Source: a virus. From it: 64,000 nt of DNA. The stretch covers positions 1 to 64,000 of the IMG/VR virus record IMGVR_UViG_3300009034_000018. One strand, given 5' to 3'. Of the stretch, positions 7,564-53,388 are shown in pieces (the first letter of the stretch is position 1; every line of letters begins with the position of its first letter). A model generated the notes under the pieces. It was given only the letters and a program-made list of their open reading frames with translations. It did not search any database and had not been told where the DNA came from. The position numbers and the translations under genes were made by a program.

Positions 7564-7579
7564 GATAGTTTTGGTTGTG

Positions 7580-8497: not shown

Positions 8498-8500
8498 TAT

Positions 8501-9508: not shown

Positions 9509-9543
9509 ATAAATATAATACTTGAAATGTTGGCAAAACCCCT

Positions 9544-9963: not shown

Positions 9964-10020
9964 ATTATTATTCCTTATGAATAATAATACTTAGAATTTT
10001 TAAAATATCCTTGAAATCTT

Positions 10021-10527
10021 TTATTTCAAAAGCTCTGCCCCTTTTGATGCAATATAATCCAGACAATGATAGTATTTTATACTAAAAATAAATCCCAATT
10101 TTTCTAATTTTTGTATAATTTCTCTGGCCCTGGTTTGTGTTCCAGTCCATTTATTATGCACTGAGGAAATTTTTAATTCTACAGAGTTTTTTTGCCATGC
10201 TCTTAATATATCTCCATCTATTAAGAGTTTTAACCATTTTCTTTCAGTCTCATCAAGTTCTTCAAATCTTTTAAGTGCTTCCTTTTCCGCATCAGTGATT
10301 GCTTGAACCATAAGCCCTAGATCAATTAATTTTTGACATTCTTCACAAACTTTAATCGGAGTTGATATATAATTTTCAGATCGAGTATCTGATATCGCCC
10401 CACAATGGTCACAATAAAAATGCATAGCAGAACCAGCCGGTAAAACAGAATCATCGATTATTGAATTTTTGGAAAAGATTCTTTTCATAAACCATCTTAT
10501 AAACAAATGAAGCTTCTCGTCAGACAT
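10021..10527 (-). CDS. zinc-ribbon protein with possible winged-helix region
   Basis: 168 residues from ATG 10527 after a perfect GAAGGAG site. Residues 38-63 hold a zinc ribbon, CDHCGAIS and CEECQKL. The second half (about 95-165) is helix-rich with TQTRAREIIQKLEKLGFIFS, which could be a winged-helix DNA-binding element. Together this resembles a small phage transcription regulator, but no named family is recognised. Confidence 0.65.
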   Translation of the reverse strand: MSDEKLHLFIRWFMKRIFSKNSIIDDSVLPAGSAMHFYCDHCGAISDTRSENYISTPIKVCEECQKLIDLGLMVQAITDAEKEALKRFEELDETERKWLKLLIDGDILRAWQKNSVELKISSVHNKWTGTQTRAREIIQKLEKLGFIFSIKYYHCLDYIASKGAELLK

Positions 10528-10556
10528 GATTTTATCTCCTTCTTAAATAGTTCATT

Positions 10557-10590
10557 ACATTATAGACAAAGTATAGACAAAGTATAATGT
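10557..10590 (-). promoter_or_regulatory. promoter region with tandem 11-bp repeat
   Basis: Two adjacent copies of TATAGACAAAG are flanked by an eight-base inverted repeat (ACATTATA 10557-10564, TATAATGT 10583-10590). On the minus strand the motif CTATAATG (10558-10565), recurrent upstream of other genes here, is placed to drive the zinc-ribbon gene starting at 10527. A tandem repeat over a -10 box suggests an operator. Confidence 0.4.
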
Positions 10591-10594
10591 TTTT

Positions 10595-10975
10595 TTATTC
10601 TGCTAAAATTATAGCTGCTATTGTGTCATAAAAACCGAGAGAAGGTTCATGCTCCATAACAACCCATTCGTCTTTTCCTTTTAGATTATATTCATCATCT
10701 CTTAGTTCATTAAACAATTTATTTAATATTAAATCTGCATCTTCTTCGCTTCTAAAATATAGAGTAAAATTATCTCCAGCAACAGAACATTTTCCTTTCT
10801 CCCTTATTGGGAAGAAAACACTACTACATCGTTCTGCAGAATGAAATTTTGAATATCTAAAACTACGAATTTTCCCAAATTTATCTTGGCTTAGAAAAAA
10901 GTTTATAAATTGTTTTACTGAAAGATTTGTTTTTTGATTTATCGTAATTCCGCCACCATAACTTACATAACTCAT
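10595..10975 (-). CDS. unrecognised protein, tandem paralogue A
   Basis: 126 residues. It is clearly related along its length to the product of the next gene upstream; both contain YGGG near the start, GDNFTLYF, ADLILNKL and HEPSLGFYD. The start overlaps that gene's stop by four bases, so the pair is translationally coupled. The conserved alpha/beta pattern suggests a small single-domain protein. Family and function are unknown. Confidence 0.75.
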   Translation of the reverse strand: MSYVSYGGGITINQKTNLSVKQFINFFLSQDKFGKIRSFRYSKFHSAERCSSVFFPIREKGKCSVAGDNFTLYFRSEEDADLILNKLFNELRDDEYNLKGKDEWVVMEHEPSLGFYDTIAAIILAE

Positions 10976-11373
10976 TTTTGTTTTTCCTTATTTTTTTTCT
11001 TTTCTTCTTGTTTGAATAATATCATAACAGACATTAAATCATAAAAACCAAGAGAGGGTTCATGATCCATAGTTACCCAATTCTCTTTTCCTCCATCTAG
11101 ATTATATGTTTTCTTTAGTTTGTTAAGTAATTTATTTAATATTAAATCAGCGGATTCTTGATTGTCAAAATATAAAGTAAAATTATCTCCTGTGCAAAAA
11201 GAATTTCCTTTTTCTCTATCCGGGAAAAAAATTACACCATATCTTTCTGGATAGATAAATTTTGTATATATGAATTCACTAATTTTTCCGAATTCGCCTT
11301 GATTTTTAAATAAATTGATAAATTCTTTTACAGTAAGATCTTCGCTTATCGTTTTTCCACCACCATAACTCAT
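10972..11373 (-). CDS. unrecognised protein, tandem paralogue B
   Basis: 133 residues from ATG 11373 after AAGGAG. It shares the blocks FGKIS/FGKIR, REKG, GDNFTLYF, LILNKL and HEPSLGFYD with the downstream paralogue and adds a Lys-rich tail. The two arose by tandem duplication, and clear divergence indicates the duplication is not recent. Confidence 0.75.
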   Translation of the reverse strand: MSYGGGKTISEDLTVKEFINLFKNQGEFGKISEFIYTKFIYPERYGVIFFPDREKGNSFCTGDNFTLYFDNQESADLILNKLLNKLKKTYNLDGGKENWVTMDHEPSLGFYDLMSVMILFKQEEKKKNKEKQK

Positions 11374-11384
11374 TTTATTTCTCC

Positions 11385-11765
11385 TTAATTTCTTCTAGGG
11401 ATTATACCTTTGTAATCTTTACCACAAATTCTGAACTGTATGAAAATCTGATCTTTTGGACGAAAATATTGTTCGGTTGTGGTCTTTATCTTAACAACAC
11501 AGGTATCTTCAATATTTCCAAAATATTTACCGGTAAAAAATCTTCTTGGTTTTTCCTGTTTTTTCGGTAATTGTTGTTTGGTTGGTTTGCTTGTAGGTTG
11601 TGTCGTTGTCTGCTTGAGCTTTGCGATATGATTTCGTAATAGTTTATTGTGTGCACGAAGTTCTTGATTTTCTGCTCGGAGTTCGCGATTTTCTCTTTTA
11701 AGTATCTCTGTTAGTTTTGTTTGCCCCGATATTGCAAGACAAATAGTAAGAATTATTTTCAACAT
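11385..11765 (-). CDS. probable secreted or anchored coiled-coil protein
   Basis: 126 residues after an AGAAGGAG site. MLKIILTICLAISG is a short hydrophobic signal-like start. A leucine-zipper-like coiled coil follows (LKRENRELRAENQELRAHNK), then a Thr/Pro/Lys linker, and a small C-terminal domain with one GxxYxG-like strand pattern. The arrangement (membrane start, coiled coil, Pro-rich linker) resembles spanin-type or periplasmic spacer proteins, but this is only an analogy. Confidence 0.6.
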   Translation of the reverse strand: MLKIILTICLAISGQTKLTEILKRENRELRAENQELRAHNKLLRNHIAKLKQTTTQPTSKPTKQQLPKKQEKPRRFFTGKYFGNIEDTCVVKIKTTTEQYFRPKDQIFIQFRICGKDYKGIIPRRN

Positions 11766-11801
11766 TTTGATCTCCTTCTACAATAATAAACCATATTTCT
11801 A

Positions 11802-12017
11802 TTATAGACTTCTTGATGCTGCTTTTGGGATGGATTGTTGTAAATTCTGCAATTCTTGTTTCATTTGTTCAATATATGGAATAATATTTTCTGGTGTTCT
11901 AAAATAAACAGCAATTTTTTCTAAATCTCCCCAATAATCAACAAATTTGTATTGAGATTTTAATTTATAATCGATTTGTTCTAATGTTGGTGGCTGGGTT
12001 TGTGATTGTGTTTGCAA
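11802..12017 (-). CDS. small Gln-rich protein with uncertain start
   Basis: At least 71 residues. The frame is open further upstream but has no ATG; TTG 12017 is the only near start and has no clear ribosome site. An ATG at about 12067 opens a 12-codon frame that runs into this one with a different phase, so a +1 shift or sequencing indel may have split the gene. The C-terminal half (VDYWGDLEKIAVYFRTPENI) looks like real protein. Function unknown. Confidence 0.45.
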   Translation of the reverse strand: MQTQSQTQPPTLEQIDYKLKSQYKFVDYWGDLEKIAVYFRTPENIIPYIEQMKQELQNLQQSIPKAASRSL

Positions 12018-12085
12018 TTGTAATCTTTCTCTTATTTCTGGTCTTTGTTGTTTTCTAATTTATTCATTATAACTTAATCGAAATA

Positions 12086-12241
12086 ATTTGTATATACAAA
12101 TATCTTTTATTTATTTTAATCGATAAAACTAAAAAATGCATTCACATTTATATATTATAGACGATATGCGTTTGATGTGAATTAGATATCATTTATATTT
12201 TTGCTCTTATATATACATTCTTATAAATTGTATATACAAAT
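12086..12241. repeat. pair of TTGTATATACAA palindromes
   Basis: A 16-base perfect palindrome ATTTGTATATACAAAT (12086-12101) and a second copy of its 12-base core TTGTATATACAA (12228-12239) lie 142 bases apart in the largest non-coding gap of the window (12018-12335), on either side of a promoter-like site. They could bind a dimeric regulator or be part of a replication or packaging site. Confidence 0.5.
12154..12181 (-). promoter_or_regulatory. sigma70-like promoter in the gap after the capsid gene
   Basis: On the minus strand TTCACA (12176-12181), a 16-base spacer and TATAAT (12154-12159) give a near-consensus promoter pointing to the genes from 12017 downward. It lies just past the capsid-gene terminator and between two palindromes. 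Confidence 0.5.
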
Positions 12242-12270
12242 ATGAAAAATATATATACTATGCTACTTCT

Positions 12271-12307
12271 TATAAATAAAAAATGCGAGAAACTTGTCCT
12301 CGCATTT
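12271..12307 (-). terminator. rho-independent terminator after the major capsid gene
   Basis: A perfect nine-base-pair stem (AAATGCGAG / CTCGCATTT, 12281-12289 with 12299-12307), a nine-base loop and a downstream TTTTTTATTTAT on the minus strand. It lies 29 bases past the capsid stop codon and is well placed to end the late head-gene transcript. Confidence 0.85.
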
Positions 12308-12335
12308 CTTATTTAACTTACTATGTTATATCGAC

Positions 12336-13208
12336 TTAGGATGCAGTTGTTATTTCGATCAGGCTGATTGCATAGTCGTTAAGAACGACGATGCCCACTT
12401 CTTCGTAGATTACCCAGCCGAGACGAAGTTTCTTTGGATCATCAGCAGGCAAAACCGTAATATCCTGACGGATTGGGAACGCGCCCACGGTATCAGGCGA
12501 AGCTACTAACAACACAACATCTGTATCCATACGACTTGAAACGTGTAAATCAGCGGTCCACAAGTGACCATACAGACCGGTTGTTATGATTTCTCTTTGA
12601 GTTGCCTCATCATAGAAATCTTTTCCGAAAATACGGATAGCAGCGAATTGTGTTGCATGCATAACTAGTTTTGTGCAAACCAGATCATGCGACTCAATCA
12701 GCCTGAAGCCAGTGTTCAGAGAGTTAACAGTCAATGCACCAACATTAACAACAACTTGTGTGCCAAGCGTTGTTGCAGCAGCAGTAAGTGCGTTGAAAAT
12801 ATTTGTATCTTCTTCCTTCTGAATCGCCTCTTTTGCCTTGATCTGTGCACGGTCAACTATATAGAATCGACGTGCTTTGATTTCAGACAATCTCACCGTT
12901 GGGTGAGCAGCAATTTCGAAGGTAGGAACAAGCACTTCTTCACCCTCTTGAATTTGATCAGGGACAGCACCACGGCGAGAGATAACGTGAGCAATTGCAG
13001 CCACGTCACGTTCATATCTAGCCAATGCGCCCTGTGGCAGTTCATCAACCATCAGAAGTTTACGACCAACAGCCTGGTATTCCAAGGAACGACGAATAGG
13101 TTCAACCATTGCCTGCGCCAAAGCCACACGCCCTTCATCGGTATTTAATGCAGCTTCAATAACAGCTAGTTTTTCTTGGTCTGTTAGACCGTTTTTCTGA
13201 ATAGCCAT
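12336..13208 (-). CDS. major capsid protein, HK97-type fold
   Basis: 290 residues from ATG 13208 after AGGAG. The sequence has the pattern of HK97-fold capsid proteins: a helical N-terminal arm (residues 1-55), an E-loop/P-domain region (GEEVLVPTFEIAAHPTVRLS), a long spine-helix region with KAKEAIQKEEDTNIFNAL, and an A-domain ending in LRLGWVIYEEVGIVVLNDYA. Codon choice is less AT-biased than in neighbours, as expected for a highly expressed gene. It sits directly after a decoration-like gene and the protease gene, the usual head order, and has its own terminator. The call rests on pattern and context. Confidence 0.75.
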   Translation of the reverse strand: MAIQKNGLTDQEKLAVIEAALNTDEGRVALAQAMVEPIRRSLEYQAVGRKLLMVDELPQGALARYERDVAAIAHVISRRGAVPDQIQEGEEVLVPTFEIAAHPTVRLSEIKARRFYIVDRAQIKAKEAIQKEEDTNIFNALTAAATTLGTQVVVNVGALTVNSLNTGFRLIESHDLVCTKLVMHATQFAAIRIFGKDFYDEATQREIITTGLYGHLWTADLHVSSRMDTDVVLLVASPDTVGAFPIRQDITVLPADDPKKLRLGWVIYEEVGIVVLNDYAISLIEITTAS

Positions 13209-21690: not shown

Positions 21691-23997
21691 TTATGTACCT
21701 ATATAATACATATGCCCTAAATTGTCATCCATATTAGTTTTTTGAAATTTTATATCTTTACCTTCTATATTTTCAAATGTTAATATACTATTTGCTTGTT
21801 TTATCATTTCGTCATTTTCACCAGCATTTTTATATCTTGCAGTTATATCTTTAGTCGCTTCAACAACATTGCTATATATAATTTTCATTATTTCAGACAT
21901 CTGATTATTAATTGCATTTTCTTTAAATCTTAAGACTCTCCAACCAATATTTGCTAATTTTGCATCTCTTTGTTGATCTCTTATTTTAGATTCTACTTGT
22001 TCATGCCAAGCTTCGCCGTCACACTCAATCGCGACACCAATTGCTGGATAAGCAAAGTCCATCATAAATGGCATTGGCTGATTAGGTAACTGGACAGAAT
22101 ATTGACCAAATAATTTATGAGGAATTTTATCAGCCATTGTTTGTAGGGCATTTAGCATTTTTTGTTCTAATGATGTTAATCTTATTATTTTCGTTTGAGG
22201 TCGCATTTGTTCTCTTTGTTTCTCTGCTGACATTCCTTTACCGCGTTTATGGACAAATGCAGGCGGTTCAGAGACTGGCTGTGGTGCAGCAGCCATTGGG
22301 ATTGCTGGGGCTCCACCAACGCCTCCTGGAGCCATTTCTCCACCTATCCCACCTCCTGGTACCATTCCACCTCCTGGTATACCACCCATTGGTTCTCCTG
22401 GCATACCTCCACCTATAGGTGGCATCTCTATGCCACCTATGCCGCCTATGCCACCCATGCCGCCCATGGCACCCATGCCGCCCATGGCTCCTGGTTGTCC
22501 TAATATTTGCCCTGTTGCAGATGCCAAAGCAGATTCTTCTCTCAATCTTTGTGTTTCTTGATCATAATCCAAATCAAATTCTTCTAATAATGTTTGTGAA
22601 GAGATTAATCCTTTATCATGAAGTTGCATATAACTTTGTCTTTGTGGGGTCTTATCTCTAAGATTTAGATCATTCCACTTTAAATTAGGGTATAGCCATA
22701 TTTTTTCTTGTGCTTCTTCACTCTCTTCCTTATCAACAAAATCATGCATCATGGCTATTGGAAGGAATATATGATTTTCCACCCATGTTGCCAATTCATT
22801 TCTCCAACTTTCTAAACGTCTTATCATAACTTCTATGCCAACTTGGGCCGAACTATATCCGCTCATCTCACCATTTAATATAGCTTGATTGAGCATGAAT
22901 CCGTCTAATATTTCTTTACCTATTTGTTCTAGTTCAGAAGTTATATTGTGTATTTTTCCGGTGGCCCCTATCCAATCATACTCAAATGCATGGTGTGTTA
23001 CAAGCGTTAAATTAGGATCATTCGCTATAGCTGCTATTTGAGATGCAACATCTTGTATATCAGTTTGATTAGCTGGACGTTTTTCACTACCCAACTTAAT
23101 AACACGAATAGGAAGAATCAAACGTTCTGCAACGATCCAATTAGCTGTCATCAATTTAGTTTTATAAGCCAAATAAGTAAATAATCTTCTTATCATAGAT
23201 GTTCCATATGCTCCATATGGGCTACCTTGATATTTAATATGACTTATACACCTATTGGATAAAACGATAGGATGACCAGAAGCAATTGCATTAACAAGTT
23301 GCGGAGGTAATTTAGAAAATATTTCCTGTGGGCGTCTTGTAGATATAATTTCTTTTAATTCATCATCTGGTTCTAATGTAAATACAGGGTCATCTGCAAT
23401 CGGAGAACTATGTACTGTTATCCAATCTGGATTTAATATCTTTATTCCTTTAATAGTACCATCAGGATGTCTACATTGTTCTCCATCTGGTCTATATCCA
23501 GATCCACCACAAATTTTACATTCATACTCTACGAATGGAAACACATCGCCTAATAGATATCTTTCAAAACTTATTAACTTTAGCCAGTATTCTAATTTTA
23601 TTCTTTTAACTAATCGTTCATAGAACTTTAATATTTTTCTATCTTTGCATTCTAAAACAAATCCATTAAGTGGAAATTCAGAATAAAAATCTATGCCAGC
23701 AGATACTTTTGGTTCATTTTCATAATAGAATCTTGACCATTGATATATTTCTCTTCGTTTGCTTGCGATCTGCCAGTTTTGTGGAGTATGCAGTGGTGAA
23801 AAGAACATGGGTTGTGTATACATTACATTCGCCAAACCACCACTAAGTGTTTGTGCGCTTTTTGTCAATGGAGTGAATGAAGTTTGACTATTAGTATATC
23901 TTCCATCCGTTTGTTGAGGATTAGTCCCGACTTTTGATACGATAGAACGTGCCTTTTCTGCCGTATTTTTATCCGGTACAGAAAATTTTATTGTCAT
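21691..23997 (-). CDS. portal protein with C-terminal DUF559/Vsr-like nuclease domain
   Basis: 768 residues after AAGGA. Residues about 60-490 look like a T4 gp20-type portal: FYENEPKVSAGIDFYSEFPL, PDWITVHSSPIADDPVF, a C-x-x-C knuckle (CKICGGSGYRP), and a helical stem with GEMSGYSSAQVGIEVMIRRL. Residues about 505-590 are a Gly/Met/Pro-rich linker (GGMGAMGGMGGIGGIGG). Residues about 605-715 form a second domain, MMDFAYPAIGVAIECDGEAW then RDQQRDAKLANIGWRVLRF, matching the DUF559/Vsr-like PD-(D/E)xK nuclease fold with Asp647, Glu658 and Asp660. A short helical tail follows. A nuclease domain on a portal is not part of the standard packaging machine. Confidence 0.8.
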   Translation of the reverse strand: MTIKFSVPDKNTAEKARSIVSKVGTNPQQTDGRYTNSQTSFTPLTKSAQTLSGGLANVMYTQPMFFSPLHTPQNWQIASKRREIYQWSRFYYENEPKVSAGIDFYSEFPLNGFVLECKDRKILKFYERLVKRIKLEYWLKLISFERYLLGDVFPFVEYECKICGGSGYRPDGEQCRHPDGTIKGIKILNPDWITVHSSPIADDPVFTLEPDDELKEIISTRRPQEIFSKLPPQLVNAIASGHPIVLSNRCISHIKYQGSPYGAYGTSMIRRLFTYLAYKTKLMTANWIVAERLILPIRVIKLGSEKRPANQTDIQDVASQIAAIANDPNLTLVTHHAFEYDWIGATGKIHNITSELEQIGKEILDGFMLNQAILNGEMSGYSSAQVGIEVMIRRLESWRNELATWVENHIFLPIAMMHDFVDKEESEEAQEKIWLYPNLKWNDLNLRDKTPQRQSYMQLHDKGLISSQTLLEEFDLDYDQETQRLREESALASATGQILGQPGAMGGMGAMGGMGGIGGIGGIEMPPIGGGMPGEPMGGIPGGGMVPGGGIGGEMAPGGVGGAPAIPMAAAPQPVSEPPAFVHKRGKGMSAEKQREQMRPQTKIIRLTSLEQKMLNALQTMADKIPHKLFGQYSVQLPNQPMPFMMDFAYPAIGVAIECDGEAWHEQVESKIRDQQRDAKLANIGWRVLRFKENAINNQMSEIMKIIYSNVVEATKDITARYKNAGENDEMIKQANSILTFENIEGKDIKFQKTNMDDNLGHMYYIGT

Positions 23998-29778: not shown

Positions 29779-30588
29779 TTATTTTATAATATTATTCCAC
29801 CAAGATTTCTCATGGCAACTATGGCTAACTTTAGAAGACTTTTTCTTGTTTGCACTTTCTTCAGCAGATTTTAAATCAACTGATTCATTGTCGTTTTTTC
29901 CAAATGCACAACGATTGTCACCTAATATCATAACTTTTAATATAGACGACCCTTTTTGTGTGATTGCTATGTTATCGCCAATACGATGAATAAAACCTTC
30001 TTCTTCCATATCATCTACATCTTTCAAATCAACAGATAACGGTTTTCTATAAACATTGTTATGAATTTTGTTTTGTTTGCTCTGCCAAATTTTATATAAT
30101 GATTGTGCTGCTTTTTCTCTCCTACTATTTTTACCATGCATAGAAGATAAGTTATCAATTAAAAAATCCAGCATCGACGTTTGGTTTTCTTTAACATCTT
30201 TTGTTTCATCAAATTTTAAGCCAGTAATCTTATATATATTATTTTTGGAATATTTTCTAAGATCAGTAAATTTTATATTAAAAACATTTTTTTTATATTT
30301 GTTTAAATATTTACCAAGAATTCTTTGTCCCCTAGAATCCATCGAGTGTATTATAACTGGTGTTTGTTGTGCAATTTTATCTTGATACATCTCCCATGCA
30401 ACATCTTCGCCATTTTGATTAGGATTGCCGAGATCCCTATCTAAAAAAATTAAATCATATTTTTCTTTTTTTAATTTATCACATGCATCATCGATTTCTG
30501 TTGCAATATGAATATTAGCATCATTAAAAATGTTTTTAAACCATTCTAATCGTTTTATATCATCTTCTAATATAAATATTTTAATCAT
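29779..30588 (-). CDS. receiver-domain protein, cyclic-phosphate-processing type, with C-terminal extension
   Basis: 269 residues. Residues 1-115 form a CheY-like receiver: acidic pocket FILEDD (5-10), phospho-acceptor-like LIFLDRDLG with Asp50, and PVIIHSMDSRG (77-87). The HS-x-(D/N)-x-x-G stretch and the ILEDD-x-x-R start match the 'cyclic-phosphate processing receiver' group rather than classical two-component regulators. The C-terminal part has a possible winged-helix region ending in VMILGDNRCAFGKND. The start overlaps the upstream paralogue's stop by four bases. No sensor kinase is present in the window. Confidence 0.7.
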   Translation of the reverse strand: MIKIFILEDDIKRLEWFKNIFNDANIHIATEIDDACDKLKKEKYDLIFLDRDLGNPNQNGEDVAWEMYQDKIAQQTPVIIHSMDSRGQRILGKYLNKYKKNVFNIKFTDLRKYSKNNIYKITGLKFDETKDVKENQTSMLDFLIDNLSSMHGKNSRREKAAQSLYKIWQSKQNKIHNNVYRKPLSVDLKDVDDMEEEGFIHRIGDNIAITQKGSSILKVMILGDNRCAFGKNDNESVDLKSAEESANKKKSSKVSHSCHEKSWWNNIIK

Positions 30589-31079
30589 AATTGTTTTTTT
30601 CTTGCCTTGAAAGAAACTCTAAAGTGTATTCTCCTTTTTTTATACCTTGCAACGCATCGATAAATTCTTTTCTTTTTTATTTGTTTTTTTCTACTATAAT
30701 TATTATATAATCCAGCCAGGTTATAGATTTCTTCGGCAGAATATTTTTTTAACTCAGTATATATCATCATATATACTTTTTTCTTATATTTAATTAAATG
30801 TCTCAACATTCTTCTTCTTCCTCTTGGATTCTTAGAATGTAATATTATCGGAGTTAATAAGGCCATTTTTTGGTATTTCATTTCTTTTGCCAGATGCTCT
30901 CCATGTTGGTCTTTTTTTTCTAAGTCTCTATCTAAAAAAATTAAGTCAAATCGTCTTTTACTTATATGTCGTATCGCTTCTTCTATGTTGTCAGTGACAA
31001 AGATATAATCATTTTTAAAGGTTTTTCTAAACCATTTAATTCTGTCTTTATTATCTTCTAATATAAAAATTTTAAACAC
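30585..31079 (-). CDS. second receiver-domain protein, cyclic-phosphate-processing type
   Basis: 164 residues from GTG 31079, seven bases after GGAG. It parallels its neighbour: FILEDNKDRIKWFRKTF, DLIFLDRDLEKKDQHGEHLA and PIILHSKNPRGRRRM. The acidic pocket is ED-N, so one Asp is lost compared with the paralogue. The C-terminus is a strongly basic tail (RCVARYKKRRIHFR) instead of the neighbour's extension. Tandem duplication followed by divergence. Confidence 0.7.
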   Translation of the reverse strand: MFKIFILEDNKDRIKWFRKTFKNDYIFVTDNIEEAIRHISKRRFDLIFLDRDLEKKDQHGEHLAKEMKYQKMALLTPIILHSKNPRGRRRMLRHLIKYKKKVYMMIYTELKKYSAEEIYNLAGLYNNYSRKKQIKKKRIYRCVARYKKRRIHFRVSFKARKKQL

Positions 31080-32817: not shown

Positions 32818-33567
32818 TTATGCTGGCATATGTTCGTATTCTTGTTCCTTCCATCGTTTCCTTTCTTTCTCTCTTTCTTTTTTACTTTTATTCTGATGTA
32901 AATTTATGGGTTCCCCATCCTTATTAAATCCATGAATTTTATATAAATTTACAAATCTTTCGTTTTCTGTTGGCATTAACTCTGCCATTTTTATCTGAGT
33001 GTCAATTTTTGCTTCCCTGATACCAATCGTTATGTGAAAATCATGTCCTTTATCCAAATAAGTTGGTGGCAGATTATATTTCTTTCTTATTTTTTTAATT
33101 TCTGGTACATCTACGGCAACAAACCATACTCTGTTTACCTCATCCCAACTAGCAGGATTTGTAGAATACATTTCCTTTAATCCGAATTCAATCTCTTTCC
33201 CAATTTCATCAATTTTTATATCATCTGTTATTTCTTCGTTAGAAATAGCAGAAATATGAGCGCCTATTTTATCATCACCCTTACCAAAATATGGTGGTTC
33301 TTTTGCATTATCATCTTTATCTATCAACGGAAAAAGTCCATGTATAATACTATCGTTAATATCGATATATACGAAATCATCATCTGTTTGTTTTAGTTTG
33401 CCTTTTAGTTTTTCTTTTTTCAATCTAGCAGCTTCTTTATGTAACGGTCCAAAATCCATATTAGCAAGCATTAATGTAACATGGTCAAATGGTTCAAGTA
33501 AGCTCCAGTGTCTTTTCAAAGATTTTTTGTTTCTTCTTTTTGCTTTTTTGGATTTAAGGACTTTCAT
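32818..33567 (-). CDS. 2H-phosphoesterase-like protein with MKVLKSKK leader
   Basis: 249 residues. Two H-x-(S/T) motifs, GAHISAI (His104) and DFHITIGI (His178), are 74 residues apart, as in the 2H phosphoesterase superfamily, which acts on cyclic and 2'-5' phosphodiester bonds. Between them VWFVAVDVPEIKKI fits the core strand. The N-terminus has the shared MKVLKSKK leader followed by LKRHWSLLEPFDHVTLML, a motif also found at the end of the Glu-repeat protein. Phage 2H enzymes include RNA-repair factors and the anti-CBASS protein Acb1; which of these applies here cannot be told from sequence by eye. Confidence 0.6.
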   Translation of the reverse strand: MKVLKSKKAKRRNKKSLKRHWSLLEPFDHVTLMLANMDFGPLHKEAARLKKEKLKGKLKQTDDDFVYIDINDSIIHGLFPLIDKDDNAKEPPYFGKGDDKIGAHISAISNEEITDDIKIDEIGKEIEFGLKEMYSTNPASWDEVNRVWFVAVDVPEIKKIRKKYNLPPTYLDKGHDFHITIGIREAKIDTQIKMAELMPTENERFVNLYKIHGFNKDGEPINLHQNKSKKEREKERKRWKEQEYEHMPA

Positions 33568-35532: not shown

Positions 35533-38500
35533 TTACCTTCTTTGTGAATCTGGCCAAGAACGAATTCTTTCCAATGCAGCAGATACTTGCTGTCCTGTAC
35601 CATATCCAAGTTGTCCAGACATTGATCGCCACATTCTGCTATTTGACATCGGAGAGACACCGATATTAACTAATTTTCCGCGTGGAAAAGAATTTGCTGT
35701 CATATTAATTACATTATAGCATGCACCAGCTAATGCGTCACAATTATGAGAATTTATACTTCCGGATACATAGGAATTATTTCTCTGTACGGCTAAATTA
35801 ACCACGAAATTTCTATAATTTGATATCTCTAATTTTTTAATGTTACAAGCTACATAATTATTAAAAAAGATATATCGTGGTTTATGATATTTGCTTTGTT
35901 TCTTTCGTAAATCTAGATTAAAAATATTAGACAATATATTAAACGATTTAGCATCAGTTATTCTAACATTATATAAATCAGAATTATGTTTTGCTAATCT
36001 TCCACGTATTCTTATGATTTTGTTTTTTCTTTTCGAACAGCTAATACTTGAAATAACCTTAAATCTTAAAAGTATCTGTTGTATTTGATGCGCCAAATAT
36101 TCAGATGTAGTTGTAAAACTTATACAAGATTCATTATGAGAGCCATCGCCATCAAACATGCCATTTAATAATCCTTTTTGAAAATTATGCTTAGCAACCA
36201 TAAACATATTAGGTATATATTTATCTGTAGCTTTTTTTCTTTTGAACAAATATATAAACATATTTTTAAGAATTTGACTATTTATGTAATAGTTTATTCC
36301 TTTACTTTGTGTATCAGATAGATATCTTTTCGTGGCATCAATCCCAAACTCATCATTGGATATTTGTTTTATTTTATTGTATATGTCGGGTTCTTCTATA
36401 TTCCCCGCAAAATTTATACTATGATCTCCGATAGAACCTTCTGCTATAAAAAGTCCATATATATATCCTAGATTATAAGAAGGTGTTATAATTCTTTTAT
36501 GCCATTTGCCATTAGCATTTTTACATCTTATATGGGCTATCTTTAGCCAATCATCACATTTTTGATGTTTTCTGTTTTCTGTATCTACAAAATCGATTAG
36601 ATCCAAATAAAAATCTTTTTGTTCTTTATTAAAAGTTTTTATTACTTTATCTGTTTTTACATTTATGTTTTGTATCGACTCCCATTTTTTTTCTCCATTC
36701 CTCAGAATTTCGACTTGATGATTATCAGTAGCAATCAAAGAAAAACCATAGTAAGGTTGTAGATTATAGATTTTTTGTTTTGCCTTTGGAAAATGACATG
36801 ATTTGTCTGTAATTTTTTTGAATTTTCCCTTATGCGTTAAGACTTTCTCCCCAGGAAAAACATCGACAATTTTTTTAGGGCCATCTTCAGTAAAAATAAT
36901 AGTATCCGGGTGTACACATATATCATCAGTATCAACAGGTCCATCTGGTTTTGGTAATCGTCTATATCCATTTAAAGTTGGTTTTCTTTGCAAATTTTTT
37001 AATTCTTTAATTAAAAGATCATGGTATGGCATAACTAATTTTTCACCGATAATAAGATTATATAATTCGTCATAAATGGTCATAATGTATTTATTATTAA
37101 ATTTGGTACATTTTGATGGGATCCCGAATTTCTTCAATTTTTCGATACTATCGGTACTATTCCATTGATCATATGTTACCATTCCAAAAAAGAATTTATT
37201 TCTGAGAGAAATAACATATTCATCTACTTCGTCAGTCTTAATTGGTTTTCCGATGGATGGTTGCCAGTATTTAATATGATCTACAACAATTCTATAATCT
37301 ACTGATTTTGTGTCTTTATTTAAAAAAGTTTCCTTATGGACTATGACTAATGCATAATTATGGCTTGTACTCGCTGGATCTAAATGAGCAAAATAAATAA
37401 TACCTGGTCGCCCGATGTCTACAAATTTTTTTCCACGTCCCTGACTAGCCATTTTTTCTATACATCCTAACGGAAAAAAGCTGCGTCCTGCTAAACCAGA
37501 AAATTCTGCTCCATATTCTTGCATGAATCTTTCATCAGACAAGTCAGAAGTTTCTCTTAAATCCTGTTTTGTCAAAGATGGGGTTACTTTCCATGTTGGT
37601 AATCTACATGATACTCTATTATTTTTATCTGGCGATTCATTATATAAGCGATATAGTTTTCCTTCTTTTCCCATCGGGGACGAAATACATACTATTTTGC
37701 CGTCAAATATTTTTCTTTCTTTTTTGTCTCCGTTTTCGTCTTTTTCGACTATTGTTCTAAAAAATGTATTTACTGATGGTTCCAATGCTGTATATAGATT
37801 TTCATCAGATGATGACCCGCTTATTGATGTATATGATGCGATTTCATCAAATAATAATACAAATATAGATTTGCCACGAAGCGTACTCGAATTGCTATGA
37901 CCGACTTCTATCTTTATAGAACCTTTTTTTTCTGATACTTTTTTCTTTTTTCTTTTTTGATTATCTTTTCTGTCTTGTGGTGTCAATAAATAAATATAAT
38001 CAGAACCTATGCCTTCTGCTTTAAATTTATCAGAAAAATATTTGCTATTAAGAAGTTTTTCGCTGATTTCGCGGAAAGCAAGACGAGCCTGGTCTGATGA
38101 CATAGCAACGGTCAAAATTGATATTTCTGCTCCACTTCCTAAATTATAAAACTTATATGGATCACCACCGGAAATTTCAAGTAGTCGCATTGCTTCGTAT
38201 AAAGCTATGATAGAGAATAAGAATGTCTTACCTGATCGTCTTCCCCATACTAAAACTAATTCTCTAAATACATTGTCAGTGTAATATTTATCAAGAGCAT
38301 CCCCATATTCATTAGTATCAAGACCGCATTCCTTACATAATTGTATTTCTTCTTCTGTTAATTCTAATGTTTCGTTGCCAATAGAGCCTCGATAAAATAT
38401 TTTCAAAATAATACGCTGCATGGGATACAGATCAAAAATTATATTCCCTTCGGAATCATATTTTTTGAGACCTAAATATTCTGGACTTTCACAAAATTCA

Positions 38501-38601
38501 ATAACATTAGGAATGTACTTATTGCTTACCATGCTGTTATTAAAATCGCCTTTATGTATGTTTAGCACATCACTTAATGTCGTATATTGTTTCTTTGGCA
38601 T
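35533..38601 (-). CDS. terminase large subunit with intein
   Basis: 1022 residues, of which 392 are an intein (562-953); the spliced protein is 630 residues, normal for the family. ATPase: Walker A GRRSGKT (120-126), Walker B FVLLFDE (247-253) with Glu253, coupling motif VCISSPMG. RuvC-like nuclease: HLDPA with Asp408, VTYDQW with Asp478, and the DTDDI|CDALAGA site made by splicing. It packages DNA into the prohead through the portal, powered by ATP. The start overlaps the previous stop by one base (TAATG). Confidence 0.92.
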   Translation of the reverse strand: MPKKQYTTLSDVLNIHKGDFNNSMVSNKYIPNVIEFCESPEYLGLKKYDSEGNIIFDLYPMQRIILKIFYRGSIGNETLELTEEEIQLCKECGLDTNEYGDALDKYYTDNVFRELVLVWGRRSGKTFLFSIIALYEAMRLLEISGGDPYKFYNLGSGAEISILTVAMSSDQARLAFREISEKLLNSKYFSDKFKAEGIGSDYIYLLTPQDRKDNQKRKKKKVSEKKGSIKIEVGHSNSSTLRGKSIFVLLFDEIASYTSISGSSSDENLYTALEPSVNTFFRTIVEKDENGDKKERKIFDGKIVCISSPMGKEGKLYRLYNESPDKNNRVSCRLPTWKVTPSLTKQDLRETSDLSDERFMQEYGAEFSGLAGRSFFPLGCIEKMASQGRGKKFVDIGRPGIIYFAHLDPASTSHNYALVIVHKETFLNKDTKSVDYRIVVDHIKYWQPSIGKPIKTDEVDEYVISLRNKFFFGMVTYDQWNSTDSIEKLKKFGIPSKCTKFNNKYIMTIYDELYNLIIGEKLVMPYHDLLIKELKNLQRKPTLNGYRRLPKPDGPVDTDDICVHPDTIIFTEDGPKKIVDVFPGEKVLTHKGKFKKITDKSCHFPKAKQKIYNLQPYYGFSLIATDNHQVEILRNGEKKWESIQNINVKTDKVIKTFNKEQKDFYLDLIDFVDTENRKHQKCDDWLKIAHIRCKNANGKWHKRIITPSYNLGYIYGLFIAEGSIGDHSINFAGNIEEPDIYNKIKQISNDEFGIDATKRYLSDTQSKGINYYINSQILKNMFIYLFKRKKATDKYIPNMFMVAKHNFQKGLLNGMFDGDGSHNESCISFTTTSEYLAHQIQQILLRFKVISSISCSKRKNKIIRIRGRLAKHNSDLYNVRITDAKSFNILSNIFNLDLRKKQSKYHKPRYIFFNNYVACNIKKLEISNYRNFVVNLAVQRNNSYVSGSINSHNCDALAGACYNVINMTANSFPRGKLVNIGVSPMSNSRMWRSMSGQLGYGTGQQVSAALERIRSWPDSQRR
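35743..36918 (-). other. intein with LAGLIDADG motifs in the large terminase
   Basis: Residues 562-953. Starts at Cys562 (CVHPDTIIFTEDGPKKI), block B at TDNHQVEIL, two LAGLIDADG motifs (YIYGLFIAEGSI, LLNGMFDGDG), and ends SYVSGSINSHN before Cys954. Both splice junctions are canonical Cys. It splits DTDDI from CDALAGA, the third acidic cluster of the nuclease active site. The LAGLIDADG pair indicates a homing endonuclease inside the intein. Confidence 0.93.
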
Positions 38602-47851: not shown

Positions 47852-48472
47852 CTAATCAATTAACTCTACATCCCAATATCCTATTTCATTCCATTGATCG
47901 GTGTTAATAAATTTTTCCCAAAATTTAGGAATTTTTGATATATGTTTTGCATACATTAAATTCCATACTGGTTTTCTAGGTTCACGTATTAATTTTAATC
48001 CTGCTTCTTCTGGAGTTCTGTTGCCTTTTTGGATATTTGCTTCAAAAGAAGCTATTACAACATTATCCCATGTCGTTTTTCCTCCACGACTTTTTGGAAA
48101 TACATGGTCAATAGTCGCATTTTTCATAGTTACTTTCTTACCAGTATACTGGCATCTATGTTTATCTCTAATTAAAAGATTTCTTCTAGTAAGTTTTACT
48201 TTTATATTAGGAATACGATTATATTTTGAAAGCACAATAACTTTTGGCACTCTTATTTTTAATTTATTAGTATGTATGAAATTTTCATCATCATCATATT
48301 TTTGCGATTCTTTTACCCATTTATTCCAATCACATTTTGTGTAATTTTCATCTATAATATGAGCAGTGCCAGTAAATGCTCTTACTATTGATTCTTTTGC
48401 TGTTTCAATATTAAACGCAGACCAGCTTTTGTTTAATACCAATGTTGGTTCATAAAGAGCTTGAATACTCAT
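47852..48472 (-). CDS. HNH endonuclease
   Basis: 206 residues after AAGGA. The C-terminal half carries the HNH core: RRNLLIRDKHRCQYTGKKVT, NATIDHVFPKSRGG and WDNVVIASFEANIQKGNRTP. Only one CxxT-type knuckle remains, as in McrA-like HNH enzymes. The N-terminus (LVLNKSWSAFNIETAKESIV) is the one seen in bacterial and phage HNH family members. Function: DNA nicking or cleavage, perhaps of host DNA or in mobility. Confidence 0.85.
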   Translation of the reverse strand: MSIQALYEPTLVLNKSWSAFNIETAKESIVRAFTGTAHIIDENYTKCDWNKWVKESQKYDDDENFIHTNKLKIRVPKVIVLSKYNRIPNIKVKLTRRNLLIRDKHRCQYTGKKVTMKNATIDHVFPKSRGGKTTWDNVVIASFEANIQKGNRTPEEAGLKLIREPRKPVWNLMYAKHISKIPKFWEKFINTDQWNEIGYWDVELID

Positions 48473-48483
48473 TTTAACATTCC

Positions 48484-48984
48484 TTATTTTAGAAATAGAT
48501 GCTTTTTAATTTCTTCTATAAAATTATTATTAAAATCCATAACAAATATATCTAAATTTCCACAAAAATTTCTCATTATCCTTGCCATATACATGGCAAC
48601 AACATCGCTATCTATTATATTTATTCCCAATCCAGGAAAAGATATAGAATCAATTTCTTTATCATCATTTGCATCTCGCAATATTTTTCTCATTGAATCA
48701 GAAATTAAATATATACTAGTTAAAATTCCATATTTTGATATCGCAGCATGGTATATTCTTTTTATACCCAAATTTTCTAATCTGCCAGAATTAGTTATAT
48801 AAAAATCACCTTCTTTTATTTTATTATCTGAGCAGATTTTTTTAGATTCTTCTTCAACACTATCACCCGCTGCTAATCTAATAAAATCAGATACTCCTTT
48901 TCTCATTATGCCTGTAGTATTAGATTCATTAACAATCGCGTGTATCCCAGGGCTTATTAAACTATCATTTTTTACATACAACAT
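48484..48984 (-). CDS. macrodomain (ADP-ribose-binding) protein
   Basis: 166 residues forming a single macrodomain. AIVNESNTTGIMRKGVSDFI (16-35) and RLAAG (36-40) match the NxxN...GG(G)VxxAI..AAG loop; GDFYITNSGRL and IKRIYHAAIS match the second loop and strand; SISFPGLG is the third. Macrodomains bind or hydrolyse ADP-ribose, ADP-ribosylated proteins or O-acetyl-ADP-ribose. It lies next to the NAD+ salvage genes and shares the window with an ART-like gene. Catalytic activity is not proven. Confidence 0.8.
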   Translation of the reverse strand: MLYVKNDSLISPGIHAIVNESNTTGIMRKGVSDFIRLAAGDSVEEESKKICSDNKIKEGDFYITNSGRLENLGIKRIYHAAISKYGILTSIYLISDSMRKILRDANDDKEIDSISFPGLGINIIDSDVVAMYMARIMRNFCGNLDIFVMDFNNNFIEEIKKHLFLK

Positions 48985-49043: not shown

Positions 49044-49865
49044 TTATAATAAAGAATCTTTATTTTTACCGCTTTCTATGATTTCCAAAACATTACTATC
49101 AAAATAATCAGGATTAACCTCTATTCTGTTCCTTAATCGCACTAAGATAGATTGATGTATCTGGCTGATACGAGATTCCGACACATTTAAATCCCGTGCT
49201 ATCTCGCGCATCGACAATTGTTCATAATAATAATAATAAATTATTTTTCTTTCAAAAGGAGTAAAATCTTTTCCAATCAATTTGTTTAAAAATTCTTTTC
49301 TTAAAATACAACTATCCGCAGGAGATTCATTCGAAGTTAAATATCTATTAAAATCTTTTTTATTATCTTCTGTACATATATCATTGGTATTTGTTTCTAT
49401 ACTGGTCCCAAAAGTGGCATGAAATTTACTTTTATTTTTATAATATTCGCCTATATCAAATCCTGCATGTTGAACAGCTTCTTGATCACTTACCTTATGT
49501 CCAGATTTCAATTCAAGTTTATGTCTGGCTTTTTCTATTTTTGCTTGTCTTATGCGAACACTACGCGGAACTCTATCTTCTTCGCGTAGCCCATCTATCA
49601 TAGATCCCCAGATCCTAGAATATGCATATGTTTCAAATTTTACACCACGAAAAGAATCATATGATTTTATTGCCTTATATAACCCAGAAACACCATGCGA
49701 TGCCAATTCTTCTACGGCAATTTTGTGCCTTAATCTTTTTTCAAGACTTTTTGCTATTTTAAGAACAAAGTTCTCATAATAATATTCAACCAATTTTTTC
49801 AACTGTTTTTTGTCTTTGTTTTTTTGAAATTTTTCCCATGTCTTTTGCAATTTTTTATTATCCAT
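49044..49865 (-). CDS. sigma-70 family factor, FliA/WhiG-like
   Basis: 273 residues from ATG 49865 after AGGA; a TTG 14 codons earlier has no ribosome site. Region 2: VEELASHGVSGLYKAIKSYD, KFETYAYSRIWGSMIDGLRE, which resembles FliA. Region 3 and a degenerate spacer follow, and region 4.2 is the helix-turn-helix SMREIARDLNVSESRISQIH. It should redirect host RNA polymerase to phage promoters. It stands alone and divergent from the NAD+ island, with CTATAAT motifs in the intergenic region. Confidence 0.92.
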   Translation of the reverse strand: MDNKKLQKTWEKFQKNKDKKQLKKLVEYYYENFVLKIAKSLEKRLRHKIAVEELASHGVSGLYKAIKSYDSFRGVKFETYAYSRIWGSMIDGLREEDRVPRSVRIRQAKIEKARHKLELKSGHKVSDQEAVQHAGFDIGEYYKNKSKFHATFGTSIETNTNDICTEDNKKDFNRYLTSNESPADSCILRKEFLNKLIGKDFTPFERKIIYYYYYEQLSMREIARDLNVSESRISQIHQSILVRLRNRIEVNPDYFDSNVLEIIESGKNKDSLL

Positions 49866-49972
49866 TTTATTCCTTTTACAAATTTTTAAATATCTCTTAG
49901 AACTCAACTGCTGGCTTTACCTATAATAGATCGCAGGTATAGAACACAACTTATTATAGGAGACAAAATTTT
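49866..49972. promoter_or_regulatory. divergent promoter region between sigma and pncB genes
   Basis: Minus strand: TATAAT (49953-49958) with TTGTTT 17 bases upstream, aiming at the sigma gene. Plus strand: TATAAT at 49922-49927, aiming at pncB, with no clear -35. A TATAGGAG ribosome site precedes ATG 49973. This is the only clear divergent control region in the window. Confidence 0.45.
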
Positions 49973-51226
49973 ATGAAACAAGGTTCGACGAAAATTATTT
50001 TTCAAGCAGAAGAATCAGAAAATCATCCTATGATTAATAGTATTTTAGATACTGATTTATATAAACTAACAATGCAACAAGCTGTATTAGAATTATATCC
50101 AGATGCATACGTTTCCTATAAATTTACAAATAGAGGCAAGCATAAGTTCAATCAACTATTCGTGGAAGTCCTTCGTGTTCAAATAAATAAATACATGCCA
50201 AATTTATATCTTCTAGATGAAGAAGCAGAATATTTACACAATGCTTGTCCATTTTTAAAGCCTTCCTATATAGAATATTTAAAAAATTATCGATTTAATC
50301 CTCTTGAAGTTCAGTTTATTCTTGACAAAGATAATAATTTGAATTTAGATATATTTGGTCCGTGGCATAAAGCAATTTTATGGGAAGTGCCATTGATGGC
50401 ACTTATTTCAGAACTTTATTTTAAATATGTTGATACAAATTGGTCACATGATGGACAAATATATTCAGCAGAGAAAAAAGCCTATTCCTTAGAAAAACAT
50501 AGTGTAAAATATGCCGATTTTGGAACACGACGTAGAAGAAGTTTTCGTAATCATAATATTGTTATAAATTCTTTTGTAAAAATTGGAAAATCGTTTGTCC
50601 ATAGCACATTACGCAACGAAAGCTCCTTTCTCGGAACAAGTAATGTATTTCTTGCCAGAAAGTATAATATTAAACCAATAGGCACCATGGCACATGAATG
50701 GGTACAAGGTATGGCTACTCTTAAAAGTATGAACAGACCGAATTATTACATGCTAGAAGATTGGGTAAAAGTATATAATGCAGATTTGGGTATTGCTTTG
50801 ACAGATACATATGGCACTGATAGTTTTTTGAGCGATTTTAATAAAAAGTTTTCAAAGTTGTATGATGGTGTACGACATGATTCCGGGTGTCCATTTGAAT
50901 TTACAAATAAAATAATAAAACATTATAAGAAACAAAAGATAGATCCGATGTCAAAAACAATCATATTTAGCGATGGTTTGGATACGAATAAAGCAATAGA
51001 GTTGAAATATTTCTGCGAAGAGCAGGGAATAAAATGTGCGTTTGGCATTGGAACATATTTTACAAACGATTTCTATAAATCTCCATCTTTAAATATGGTT
51101 ATTAAACTTTGGAGCGTTAATGGATTTCCTGTTGTCAAGTTAAGTGACGCAGAGGGAAAAGAAAGCGGAGATTCCGAAGCCATTAAAATAATGAAATGGA
51201 TTGTAAAACATCAATTGAGTAAATAA
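49973..51226 (+). CDS. pncB: nicotinate phosphoribosyltransferase
   Basis: 417 residues after AGGAG, normal length. LDTDLYKLTMQQAV, the paired YKFTNRG segment, VKYADFGTRRRRSFRNHN and DGVRHDSGCPFEF match nicotinate phosphoribosyltransferases (FGTRRR and R-x-DSG phosphoribosyl sites). IIFSDGLDTNKAIEL follows as in the family. It makes nicotinate mononucleotide from nicotinate and PRPP, in the Preiss-Handler route to NAD+. It is followed by the nicotinamidase gene on the same strand, a functional pair. Confidence 0.92.
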   Translation: MKQGSTKIIFQAEESENHPMINSILDTDLYKLTMQQAVLELYPDAYVSYKFTNRGKHKFNQLFVEVLRVQINKYMPNLYLLDEEAEYLHNACPFLKPSYIEYLKNYRFNPLEVQFILDKDNNLNLDIFGPWHKAILWEVPLMALISELYFKYVDTNWSHDGQIYSAEKKAYSLEKHSVKYADFGTRRRRSFRNHNIVINSFVKIGKSFVHSTLRNESSFLGTSNVFLARKYNIKPIGTMAHEWVQGMATLKSMNRPNYYMLEDWVKVYNADLGIALTDTYGTDSFLSDFNKKFSKLYDGVRHDSGCPFEFTNKIIKHYKKQKIDPMSKTIIFSDGLDTNKAIELKYFCEEQGIKCAFGIGTYFTNDFYKSPSLNMVIKLWSVNGFPVVKLSDAEGKESGDSEAIKIMKWIVKHQLSK

Positions 51227-51247
51227 TATTTTATAATTTAGGAGAAA

Positions 51248-51423
51248 ATGAATGAAAAAAAAATAAAGAAAATATATTTTATCAAATCGGAGCAAGAGAC
51301 ATGCTTGTTGTAATATTAACACAAGCAAAGGTCGATAATATAAAATATCCAAGATTAGCAGAATATTACGAAAAGTTATTTAAAGAAAAACATTTTTCTC
51401 ATAAATATCATCTGGGTAAATAA
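51248..51423 (+). pseudogene. small ORF split at a nine-A run
   Basis: An AGGAG site precedes ATG 51248 (MNEKKIKK), but this frame stops after about 21 codons. A second frame gives MLVVILTQAKVDNIKYPRLA from 51301 to stop 51421, and is open back into the A9 run at 51255-51263. Reading through with a one-base shift would give about 58 residues. Either a frameshifted gene, a real recoding, or a sequencing indel. Confidence 0.4.
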
Positions 51424-51443
51424 AAATTTTCAGGAGAAAATTA

Positions 51444-52205
51444 ATGAATAAAGAAAAGATATTATTTATGTGTGTCGATGCTCAAAAAGATTTTATCAAT
51501 AAAGATGGGGCATTAAGTGTTAAAGGTGCAGAAAAAATTAAACCAGCTCTTAATAATTTAATTCAATTAGCGGTTAAAATTGATAATGGTATGAATAATT
51601 ATGCGACAATAATCTATACAGGAGATAAGCATAACAAAAGCTCGAAAGAAATATCAGATCATCCTAATTTAGTAGATGGTACTTTTCTTCCACATTGTAT
51701 GGATAATACAGACGGTATGAATTTTATAGACGAAGTATACCCATTTAATCCAATAATTATTGATTGGTATTATAATACTATTGACGATATTGCTATAGAA
51801 TTTGCAAGTGAAATTATTATTTACAAAGACGATTTTGATGTATTTCAAGGAAATAAACATACAAACAACATTTTAAAAATAGTTAATCCATCTATCGTAT
51901 TTGTATTTGGCGTAGCAACTAATATTTGTGTTAATGCGGCTATGGTTGGGCTTGCAAAAAGAGGATATGAAGTTTGCCTTGTTATTGACGCTGTTAAAGA
52001 ATTACCAGGTATTTCATTAGACGAAGTAATACAAGAATGGAAGAAATATAGAATAAAATATATATCAACCATTCCATATATATCACAATATCACCATGCA
52101 TTTGAATTTTATAAGAAAATTTGCGACACATATAATCATGATTATTTTAATCAATCACACATATTAACACTAGATAAATTTATAAAAGATAGATTCGGAG
52201 ATTAG
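51444..52205 (+). CDS. pncA: nicotinamidase
   Basis: 253 residues after AGGAG. Catalytic triad: Asp12 in FMCVDAQKDF, Lys128 in YKDDFDVF, and Cys162 in GVATNICVNAAM. Metal ligands are likely Asp61, His63 and His84 (TGDKHNK, LPHC). It hydrolyses nicotinamide to nicotinate and ammonia, the input for the PncB enzyme encoded just upstream. The pair would return nicotinamide released by NAD+-consuming enzymes to NAD+, using host NadD and NadE. Confidence 0.92.
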   Translation: MNKEKILFMCVDAQKDFINKDGALSVKGAEKIKPALNNLIQLAVKIDNGMNNYATIIYTGDKHNKSSKEISDHPNLVDGTFLPHCMDNTDGMNFIDEVYPFNPIIIDWYYNTIDDIAIEFASEIIIYKDDFDVFQGNKHTNNILKIVNPSIVFVFGVATNICVNAAMVGLAKRGYEVCLVIDAVKELPGISLDEVIQEWKKYRIKYISTIPYISQYHHAFEFYKKICDTYNHDYFNQSHILTLDKFIKDRFGD

Positions 52206-52225
52206 AAATAAATATGGGATTACTT

Positions 52226-52248
52226 AGTTAAAGACTTAACTTTTATTC
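52226..52248 (+). terminator. weak terminator after the nicotinamidase gene
   Basis: AGTTAA (52226-52231) and TTAACT (52236-52241) pair around an AGAC loop, followed by TTTTATT. AT-rich and weak, but placed between convergent genes. Confidence 0.35.
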
Positions 52249-52592
52249 ATTCTTCCTGTTACTTTTTCCCATTTGGATAATTTTGGTTTTGGCGGGTGGT
52301 CTTTTTCGTGCTTTAATTTTTTGTATCTTTCCATCGCAAGCATATAGATATATATCATCGTGTTATCTTTTTCTTGGTTATCATTATTCTTAGCAATACC
52401 TAATGGTCTTCTTTCAAACCATCCCCATGCTTTAAGTTCTTCGCATATTTTGCATGTTTCTCCTTTTACCGCAATAGAAGGATCTTCAAATGCTATTTCT
52501 ATTTCATTAACTGTCTTTTCTGCCCAATCCATAGCCAACTTTTTCAATTCGTCATCCAATTTGAATTTTCTTCTTTTTCTTTCATTTATCAT
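52236..52592 (-). CDS. unrecognised charged protein with a Cys pair
   Basis: 118 residues, convergent to the nicotinamidase gene. Mostly helical (LKKLAMDWAEKTVNEIEIAF), with a CKIC pair near residue 47 followed by WGWFERRPLG, and a basic C-terminus. A single CxxC is not enough for a zinc site unless the protein dimerises. Not recognised. Confidence 0.65.
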   Translation of the reverse strand: MINERKRRKFKLDDELKKLAMDWAEKTVNEIEIAFEDPSIAVKGETCKICEELKAWGWFERRPLGIAKNNDNQEKDNTMIYIYMLAMERYKKLKHEKDHPPKPKLSKWEKVTGRMNKS

Positions 52593-52677: not shown

Positions 52678-53388
52678 ATGAACTGGTATAAAAAATCATG
52701 GAATATGAAGAACTTTTTTAAGGGAATTGGAATAGGCGCTTTGTCTCTTCCATTTATGCTTATATTTTTGAATATGTCTGATGAAGACCTTAAAAATTTA
52801 TATATACAGGAACAAGGTGACGAAATCGCTGTAAAGAAAGAATTAGAAAACCGACTGCAGAAGAAAATTCAAGAGAAATTTGATTATAAACAATTTTCTG
52901 ATCACATTAAAAAATATGAGGGTTTTAGGAACGAAGTATATGATGATGGAAGAGGAAATGCAACGATTGGAATTGGACATTTGATCACCCCTCAATCAGA
53001 GAATATTTTTACTGGTTTATTCGGTGATAATATCAATTACGACGATATAGTATCTGGCAAATCTCAATTGACAGACGAACAAGTATATCAATTAGCTGAA
53101 TATGATATTGAAAAGCATTTGGGGAGAGCAAGATCTATATTCCCAAGATTTGATACATATCCGTATTACTTACAACAAGCTTTATTAAACTCTGTATATA
53201 GAGGGGATACTGGTCCTAAAACAATTAAATTAATCAATACTGGAAAATTTAGAGAAGCCGCCAAAGAATATTTAAATAGATATGATTATAACAATGCAGT
53301 AGCTCTTGGTATTCGTGGTATTAAAGCTAGGATGGAAGCAAATAGAGATGCCATGTTAAATTATGCGAATGAGTTAGAAGGTAAGTAA
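52678..53388 (+). CDS. membrane-anchored T4-type lysozyme (GH24)
   Basis: 236 residues. A start related to the MNWY leader (MNWYKKSWNMKNF) is followed by a membrane or signal-anchor segment (IGIGALSLPFMLIFLNM). The muramidase core has the GH24 signature: YEGFRNEVYDDGRGNATIGI with Glu at KYEGF, Asp at YDDG and Thr before GIGH, and ALLNSVYRGD. It cleaves peptidoglycan glycan strands for lysis. Signal-anchor endolysins are exported and released into the periplasm. It has no clear Shine-Dalgarno site. Confidence 0.9.
   Translation: MNWYKKSWNMKNFFKGIGIGALSLPFMLIFLNMSDEDLKNLYIQEQGDEIAVKKELENRLQKKIQEKFDYKQFSDHIKKYEGFRNEVYDDGRGNATIGIGHLITPQSENIFTGLFGDNINYDDIVSGKSQLTDEQVYQLAEYDIEKHLGRARSIFPRFDTYPYYLQQALLNSVYRGDTGPKTIKLINTGKFREAAKEYLNRYDYNNAVALGIRGIKARMEANRDAMLNYANELEGK

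Follow-up and report, generated by a model that had tools for sequence, protein, structure and literature searches.

The window analysed here is a 64-kb stretch of a 74,058-bp virus record that is classed as a linear fragment, and the presence of portal, terminase and ribonucleotide reductase genes identifies its source as a tailed phage. The portal and terminase genes are at positions 21691-23997 and 35533-38601, both on the minus strand. Residues 645-757 of the portal protein form an HNH-like stretch, and the terminase has 1022 aa where that of L145 has 639 aa, which suggests that there are inserted elements, such as inteins, in these genes. The window also contains an adjacent pair of genes with receiver (cREC/response-regulator) domains at 29779-31079 (minus strand), and a 2H phosphoesterase at 32818-33567. 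Most genes in the window are on the minus strand, and two plus-strand outliers, pncB and pncA, are the subject of this analysis. The features of the locus are as follows.

47852-48472, minus strand: HNH endonuclease, a gene of the core block, used as a query for finding relatives.
48484-48984, minus strand: macrodomain protein, a gene of the core block that is not tied to the NAD+ cassette.
49044-49907, minus strand: sigma-70 family factor, transcribed away from pncB and belonging to the core gene set of the phage group.
49973-51226, plus strand: pncB, nicotinate phosphoribosyltransferase (nicotinate + PRPP to NaMN), assigned from family models, motifs and ribosome-binding site (RBS).
51227-51443: gap of 217 bp between pncB and pncA, AT-rich, with short ORFs only.
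51444-52205, plus strand: pncA, predicted nicotinamidase, assigned from family match, active-site residues, AlphaFold model and RBS.
52206-52235: junction of 30 bp, the site occupied by nadE (801 bp) in the relative L071; there is no NadE in the window.
52236-52592, minus strand: conserved ORF of 118 aa adjoining the lysozyme gene, with no assigned function; a marker of the cargo-site border.
52678-53388, plus strand: phage lysozyme with N-terminal MNWYKK; the far border of the cargo site.

The plus-strand run therefore comprises pncB, pncA and the lysozyme gene, with the small minus-strand ORF between the last two. PncB (417 aa) and PncA (253 aa) are far longer than the longest ORFs in 20 shuffles of the window (83-150 aa), and the base composition of their genes resembles that of the neighbouring genes. 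Both genes have a strong RBS upstream (TAGGAGA for pncB, CAGGAGA for pncA). An Rfam search for a riboswitch or other known RNA upstream found only tRNAs, and promoter and terminator scans gave no more matches than in shuffled sequences. The translation start of the sigma factor is probably the ATG near 49865. RNR and dUTPase genes are located in the neighbourhood of the cassette. An N-terminal motif, MNWY(K/N)K, is common to the lysozyme (52678, plus strand) and to tandem proteins of unknown family at 8140 and 8497 (both minus strand), and recurs on lysozymes in relatives, perhaps as a signal for targeting or processing. A preliminary description of this DNA had reported a plus-strand PncA-PncB pair, divergent from a sigma factor. 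The ORFs, family scores and invariant residues bear out the pair, and the position of the sigma factor on the minus strand at 49044-49907 bears out the divergence. The gene pair is real but the range given for it began too early, because 49044 is the start of the sigma factor and pncB begins at 49973. The macrodomain gene had been placed next to the pair, but the sigma factor intervenes and the macrodomain is one gene further off.

The identity of PncB is clear. It scores 448.5 bits against TIGR01514 (curated equivalog cut-off 269.6) and 459 bits against NF003704 (cut-off 379), and it matches both NAPRTase Pfam domains. Its residues H241, F183-R188 (FGTRRR), G221-N224 (GTSN) and D303-S304 (DSG) are invariant in eight phage NAPRTases. 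His241 lies in a TMAHEW motif that aligns with the same motif in the yeast and Pseudomonas enzymes (1vlp and 1yir), and it corresponds to the phosphorylated histidine of the NAPRTase family. In a phylogenetic tree the phage PncBs form a cluster apart from bacterial PncBs, and the nearest cellular group is Methanosarcinaceae, whose PncBs (L156-L160) group with the window's phage kin and not with those of bacteria. Two candidates were excluded as phage PncBs: in the Acinetobacter MD-2021a record (L006) the pncB gene is flanked by bacterial chromosome genes (ribH, nusB, thiL and others), and both its PncB and that of Moraxella Mcat17 lie among Moraxellaceae in the tree.

PncA matches the Isochorismatase family (50 bits, cut-off 27) but scores only 24.6 bits against the nicotinamidase equivalog NF008623, below its cut-off of 174, so we refer to it as nicotinamidase-like and to its substrate as predicted. 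Nicotinamidase is nevertheless the best NCBIfam model for all 10 phage PncAs tested, and nicotinamidases are the nearest PDB sequences to the window's protein. Its AlphaFold model has a pLDDT of 84, with residues 212-243 poor, and the top eight PDB fold matches are all nicotinamidases (E = 3e-12), followed closely by other hydrolases of the superfamily. The catalytic triad (D12, K128 and C162) and the three residues that bind the metal (D61, H63 and H84) are all invariant across 11 phage PncAs; if the lysine is left aside, since its alignment is uncertain in distant sequences, the other five residues are invariant across 15 phage sequences. An Asp-x-His...His metal site separates nicotinamidases from many of their relatives in the isochorismatase family. 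In the subgroup to which the window's PncA belongs, the loop after the catalytic lysine is short and isochorismatase-like. A tblastn search of annotated phages with the window's PncA found no homologues, and the phage PncAs were recovered by profile and family searches. On the strength of the metal site and the gene neighbours, we predict that the substrate is nicotinamide.

A 109-kb contig, L071, is a syntenic relative. One of its strands codes for an AAA protein, a 272-aa protein, HNH, macrodomain and sigma factor, in the same order as in the window, and its other strand for PncB, PncA, NadE and lysozyme, followed by a deoxyribosyltransferase-like gene. PncB, sigma factor and HNH are 60-64% identical between the two, and the 118-aa ORF has an L071 orthologue that is 50% identical. 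The gap between pncB and pncA is 217 bp in the window and 10 bp in L071. In the window the distance from pncA to the 118-aa ORF is just 30 bp, whereas in L071 the orthologue of this ORF comes after nadE, so NadE is cleanly absent from the window's slot; this could equally be a loss in the window or a gain in L071.

By scanning with the sigma factor, the 272-aa protein and HNH, we found the sigma-HNH core in 21 lineages, including the window. PncB lies between sigma factor and lysozyme in 11 of them, while the other 10 have other genes or no NAD+ gene there. In every one of the 11, PncB is the NAD+ gene nearest to sigma, but its partners vary: there may be none, or PncA, NadE (the commonest), a Nudix gene or a glutamine-dependent NadE. 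For example, the slot in L001 contains PncB, NadE, Nudix and lysozyme, and in L052 NadE follows 4.3 kb after PncB. The window and L071 are the sole lineages with PncA in the slot. Conservation of gene order, which the preliminary description had raised, thus extends to 11 lineages for PncB divergent from sigma, but to these two for PncA beside PncB. In the sigma tree, the window and L071 are beside two phages that lack PncB, whereas in the PncB tree they group with L152, L052 and L153. Because this conflict is supported, PncB has been exchanged between lineages at a fixed position, and the interval between sigma and lysozyme is a cargo site across the phage group. When the portal was used to search for close phage relatives, a single contig of 4.5 kb was all that emerged. 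Among relatives whose PncB is linked to sigma, sizes of up to 548 kb occur, so the window phage may itself be a jumbo phage, with the missing steps perhaps outside the fragment; it is probably at least jumbo-phage kin. One 462-kb phage (L003) has a deoxyribosyltransferase-like gene (Nuc_deoxyri_tr2; 9502-9981, plus strand) directly upstream of PncB.

Other phages carry more of the pathway. Our census covers phage records that were picked up through their PncA or PncB, and in this biased sample most records have NadE. All four deamidating (Preiss-Handler) steps are present in at least six records (MT835470, Phosso, Atu_ph07, and the source records of L058, L062 and L070), a count made after the identities of the adenylyltransferases (NadD/NMNAT) and NadE had been verified. 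These records are outside the window's phage group, and Atu_ph07 and Phosso are isolates. In the gut phage record MT835470 (L009, MT835470.1), positions 7136-12654 contain PncA, a small membrane protein, PncB, NadE, one further gene, NadD and Nudix, all in a single orientation; the whole pathway is present as one operon. In Phosso, NadE, PncB, Nudix, NMNAT and PncA are within 6 kb, and a deoxyribosyltransferase-like gene is also nearby. In L053 and L054 (records G005 and G006) the NadD-like frame, which lies beside PncB and NadE, is interrupted by two in-frame TAG codons, hinting that these phages recode TAG.

With these genes and their active-site residues, the synteny, the variable slot composition and the conflicting gene trees in view, we read the locus as a partial deamidating (Preiss-Handler) NAD+ salvage cassette that is exchangeable cargo of a tailed phage, and put the probability of this reading at roughly 80%. 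PncA would hydrolyse nicotinamide to nicotinate, PncB would join nicotinate and PRPP to give NaMN, and NaMN would be converted to NAD+ by NadD and NadE of the host or by phage genes beyond the fragment. Production of NaMN from nicotinamide by the two enzymes, as the preliminary description had proposed, is well supported as a prediction from their identities and active-site residues. Its suggestion that host NadD and NadE are relied on also holds, since family searches found neither gene in the 74-kb fragment. We infer that the cassette is expressed during infection, with the net effect that NAD+ is upheld.

What the phage gains can be read in two ways. A plausible reading, which we rate somewhat short of an even chance, is counter-defence: once nicotinamide and ADP-ribose have been released by host NADase defences (Thoeris, DSR, Avs5 and SIR2- or TIR-based systems), the cassette would rebuild NAD+, by a chemical route that would stand third after NARP1 and NARP2. 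It fits because nicotinamide, the predicted substrate of PncA, is the very compound that such NADases free, and because cassettes in some relatives (L001, L248 and L249) include a Nudix gene, nearest to NudE/ADP-ribose diphosphatase models, whose product might return ribose-5-phosphate from ADP-ribose for making PRPP. Patchy cargo exchanged at a fixed site is also typical of anti-defence genes, and both NARP1 and the rebuilding of NAD+ by phages have been established experimentally (PMC12774641, PMC13232231). On the other hand, PncA and PncB use no NADase product except nicotinamide, the macrodomain shows no association with the cassette, and most relatives in the group are without PncA, so that in them the nicotinamide step would fall to the host. 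The other reading fits nearly as well: the cassette may raise NAD(P) for replication or allow growth in salvage-poor hosts, with no role in defence. The nearby RNR and dUTPase genes point this way, the variable partners (PncB alone, PncB with NadE, and so on) would suit topping up whichever steps limit the host, and metabolic support is the usual interpretation of KVP40-type NAD+ genes (PMC11097641). By itself, however, metabolic supply leaves the added nicotinamide deamidation and the frequent exchange of cargo unexplained. More tentatively still, we suggest that PncA and PncB, completed by host or phage NadD and NadE, may constitute a third way for phages to reconstitute NAD+, one that involves deamidation, undoes NADase immunity and spreads as a modular cargo inserted at one constant genome site. 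A set of PncA, PncB, NadE and NadD recurring in unrelated phages would mean that an entire chemical route is overlooked when anti-defence NAD+ genes are annotated, and since the cultured phages Atu_ph07 and Phosso carry the set, the question can be addressed directly in them.

We consider it improbable that PncA is an isochorismatase-like hydrolase acting on some other substrate, with only PncB serving NAD+ metabolism. Its low score to the nicotinamidase equivalog would allow this, as would the fact that the superfamily, and the list of fold matches, include biuret, triuret and N-carbamoylsarcosine hydrolases; but the D61/H63/H84 metal site is invariant, nicotinamidases come first both by sequence and by fold, and independent phages repeatedly have PncA adjoining PncB and NadE. 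Still less credible is a single ADP-ribose/NAD+ system of macrodomain, sigma factor, PncB and PncA, because, although this neighbourhood is conserved in the window, L071, L052, L152 and L153, 8 of the 10 relatives that lack PncB have a macrodomain scoring above 100 bits, as do 9 of the 11 that carry PncB, two being without it (Fisher p = 1). An association hinted at in seven genomes (Fisher 0.048) was refuted by the 21 relatives, so the macrodomain is a core gene whose presence does not speak for a joint system with PncB, and its inclusion in the preliminary description is not supported. Two further genes cited there in support add little: the 'deoxyribosyltransferase-like' gene scores 12 bits against a cut-off of 28.8, and the 'ART-like' gene had no family match in our searches.

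The individual enzymes are ordinary, and their setting is less so, being modular and exchanged at a fixed site. Compared with bacterial Preiss-Handler salvage (PncA, PncB, NadD and NadE), the first two enzymes are the same and have intact active-site residues, but the window's set is phage-borne, lies in a phage cargo slot and is incomplete, the fragment having PncA and PncB only, while NadE and NadD occur as well in relatives. Agrobacterium phage Atu_ph07 and Sinorhizobium phage Phosso differ in that each genome has PncA, PncB, an NMN adenylyltransferase-like protein and NadE; their PncBs are only 31-32% identical to that of the window, and their PncAs are annotated as hypothetical protein or hydrolase. 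The Atu_ph07 paper names NAPRTase only as a PCR marker. Two surveys of phage NAD+ enzymes list NadV, NadM and NadR and do not mention nicotinamidase (PMC9503650, PMC7824862), and nadE has been reported from snow viromes. Xanthomonas phage X1 has auxiliary pncB, nadM, nadD and nadE, for which countering of NAD+ depletion has already been suggested (PMC13384950); the likeness is by gene list alone and, unlike in the window, no nicotinamidase is named. Annotations of phage pncB, nadD and nadE are thus already known, and we found no paper describing a phage Preiss-Handler route in the freely searchable literature; the PncA-PncB route is recurring but little-described. NARP1 (Adps and Namat) is likewise a phage system that rebuilds NAD+ from NADase products, but it does so in two steps from ADPR-PP and nicotinamide, unlike PncA and PncB, and neither Adps nor Namat is among the fragment's genes as annotated with general family models. 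NARP2 and KVP40-type systems (NadV/Nampt with NadM or NadR) are likewise phage-encoded and start from nicotinamide and PRPP. The sole phosphoribosyltransferase in the window is an NAPRTase equivalog and not Nampt, its match to phrog_448 (Nampt-type) being weak, and the 74-kb fragment has no match to PF01467, the family searched for an NMN adenylyltransferase (NadM/NadR). Nampt makes NMN directly, without deamidation, whereas by the window's route nicotinamide would be deamidated first and NaMN made, hence the need for amidation by NadE at the end. The preliminary description had stated that NARP1 and NARP2 use other enzymes, and the window's cassette is chemically distinct from both.
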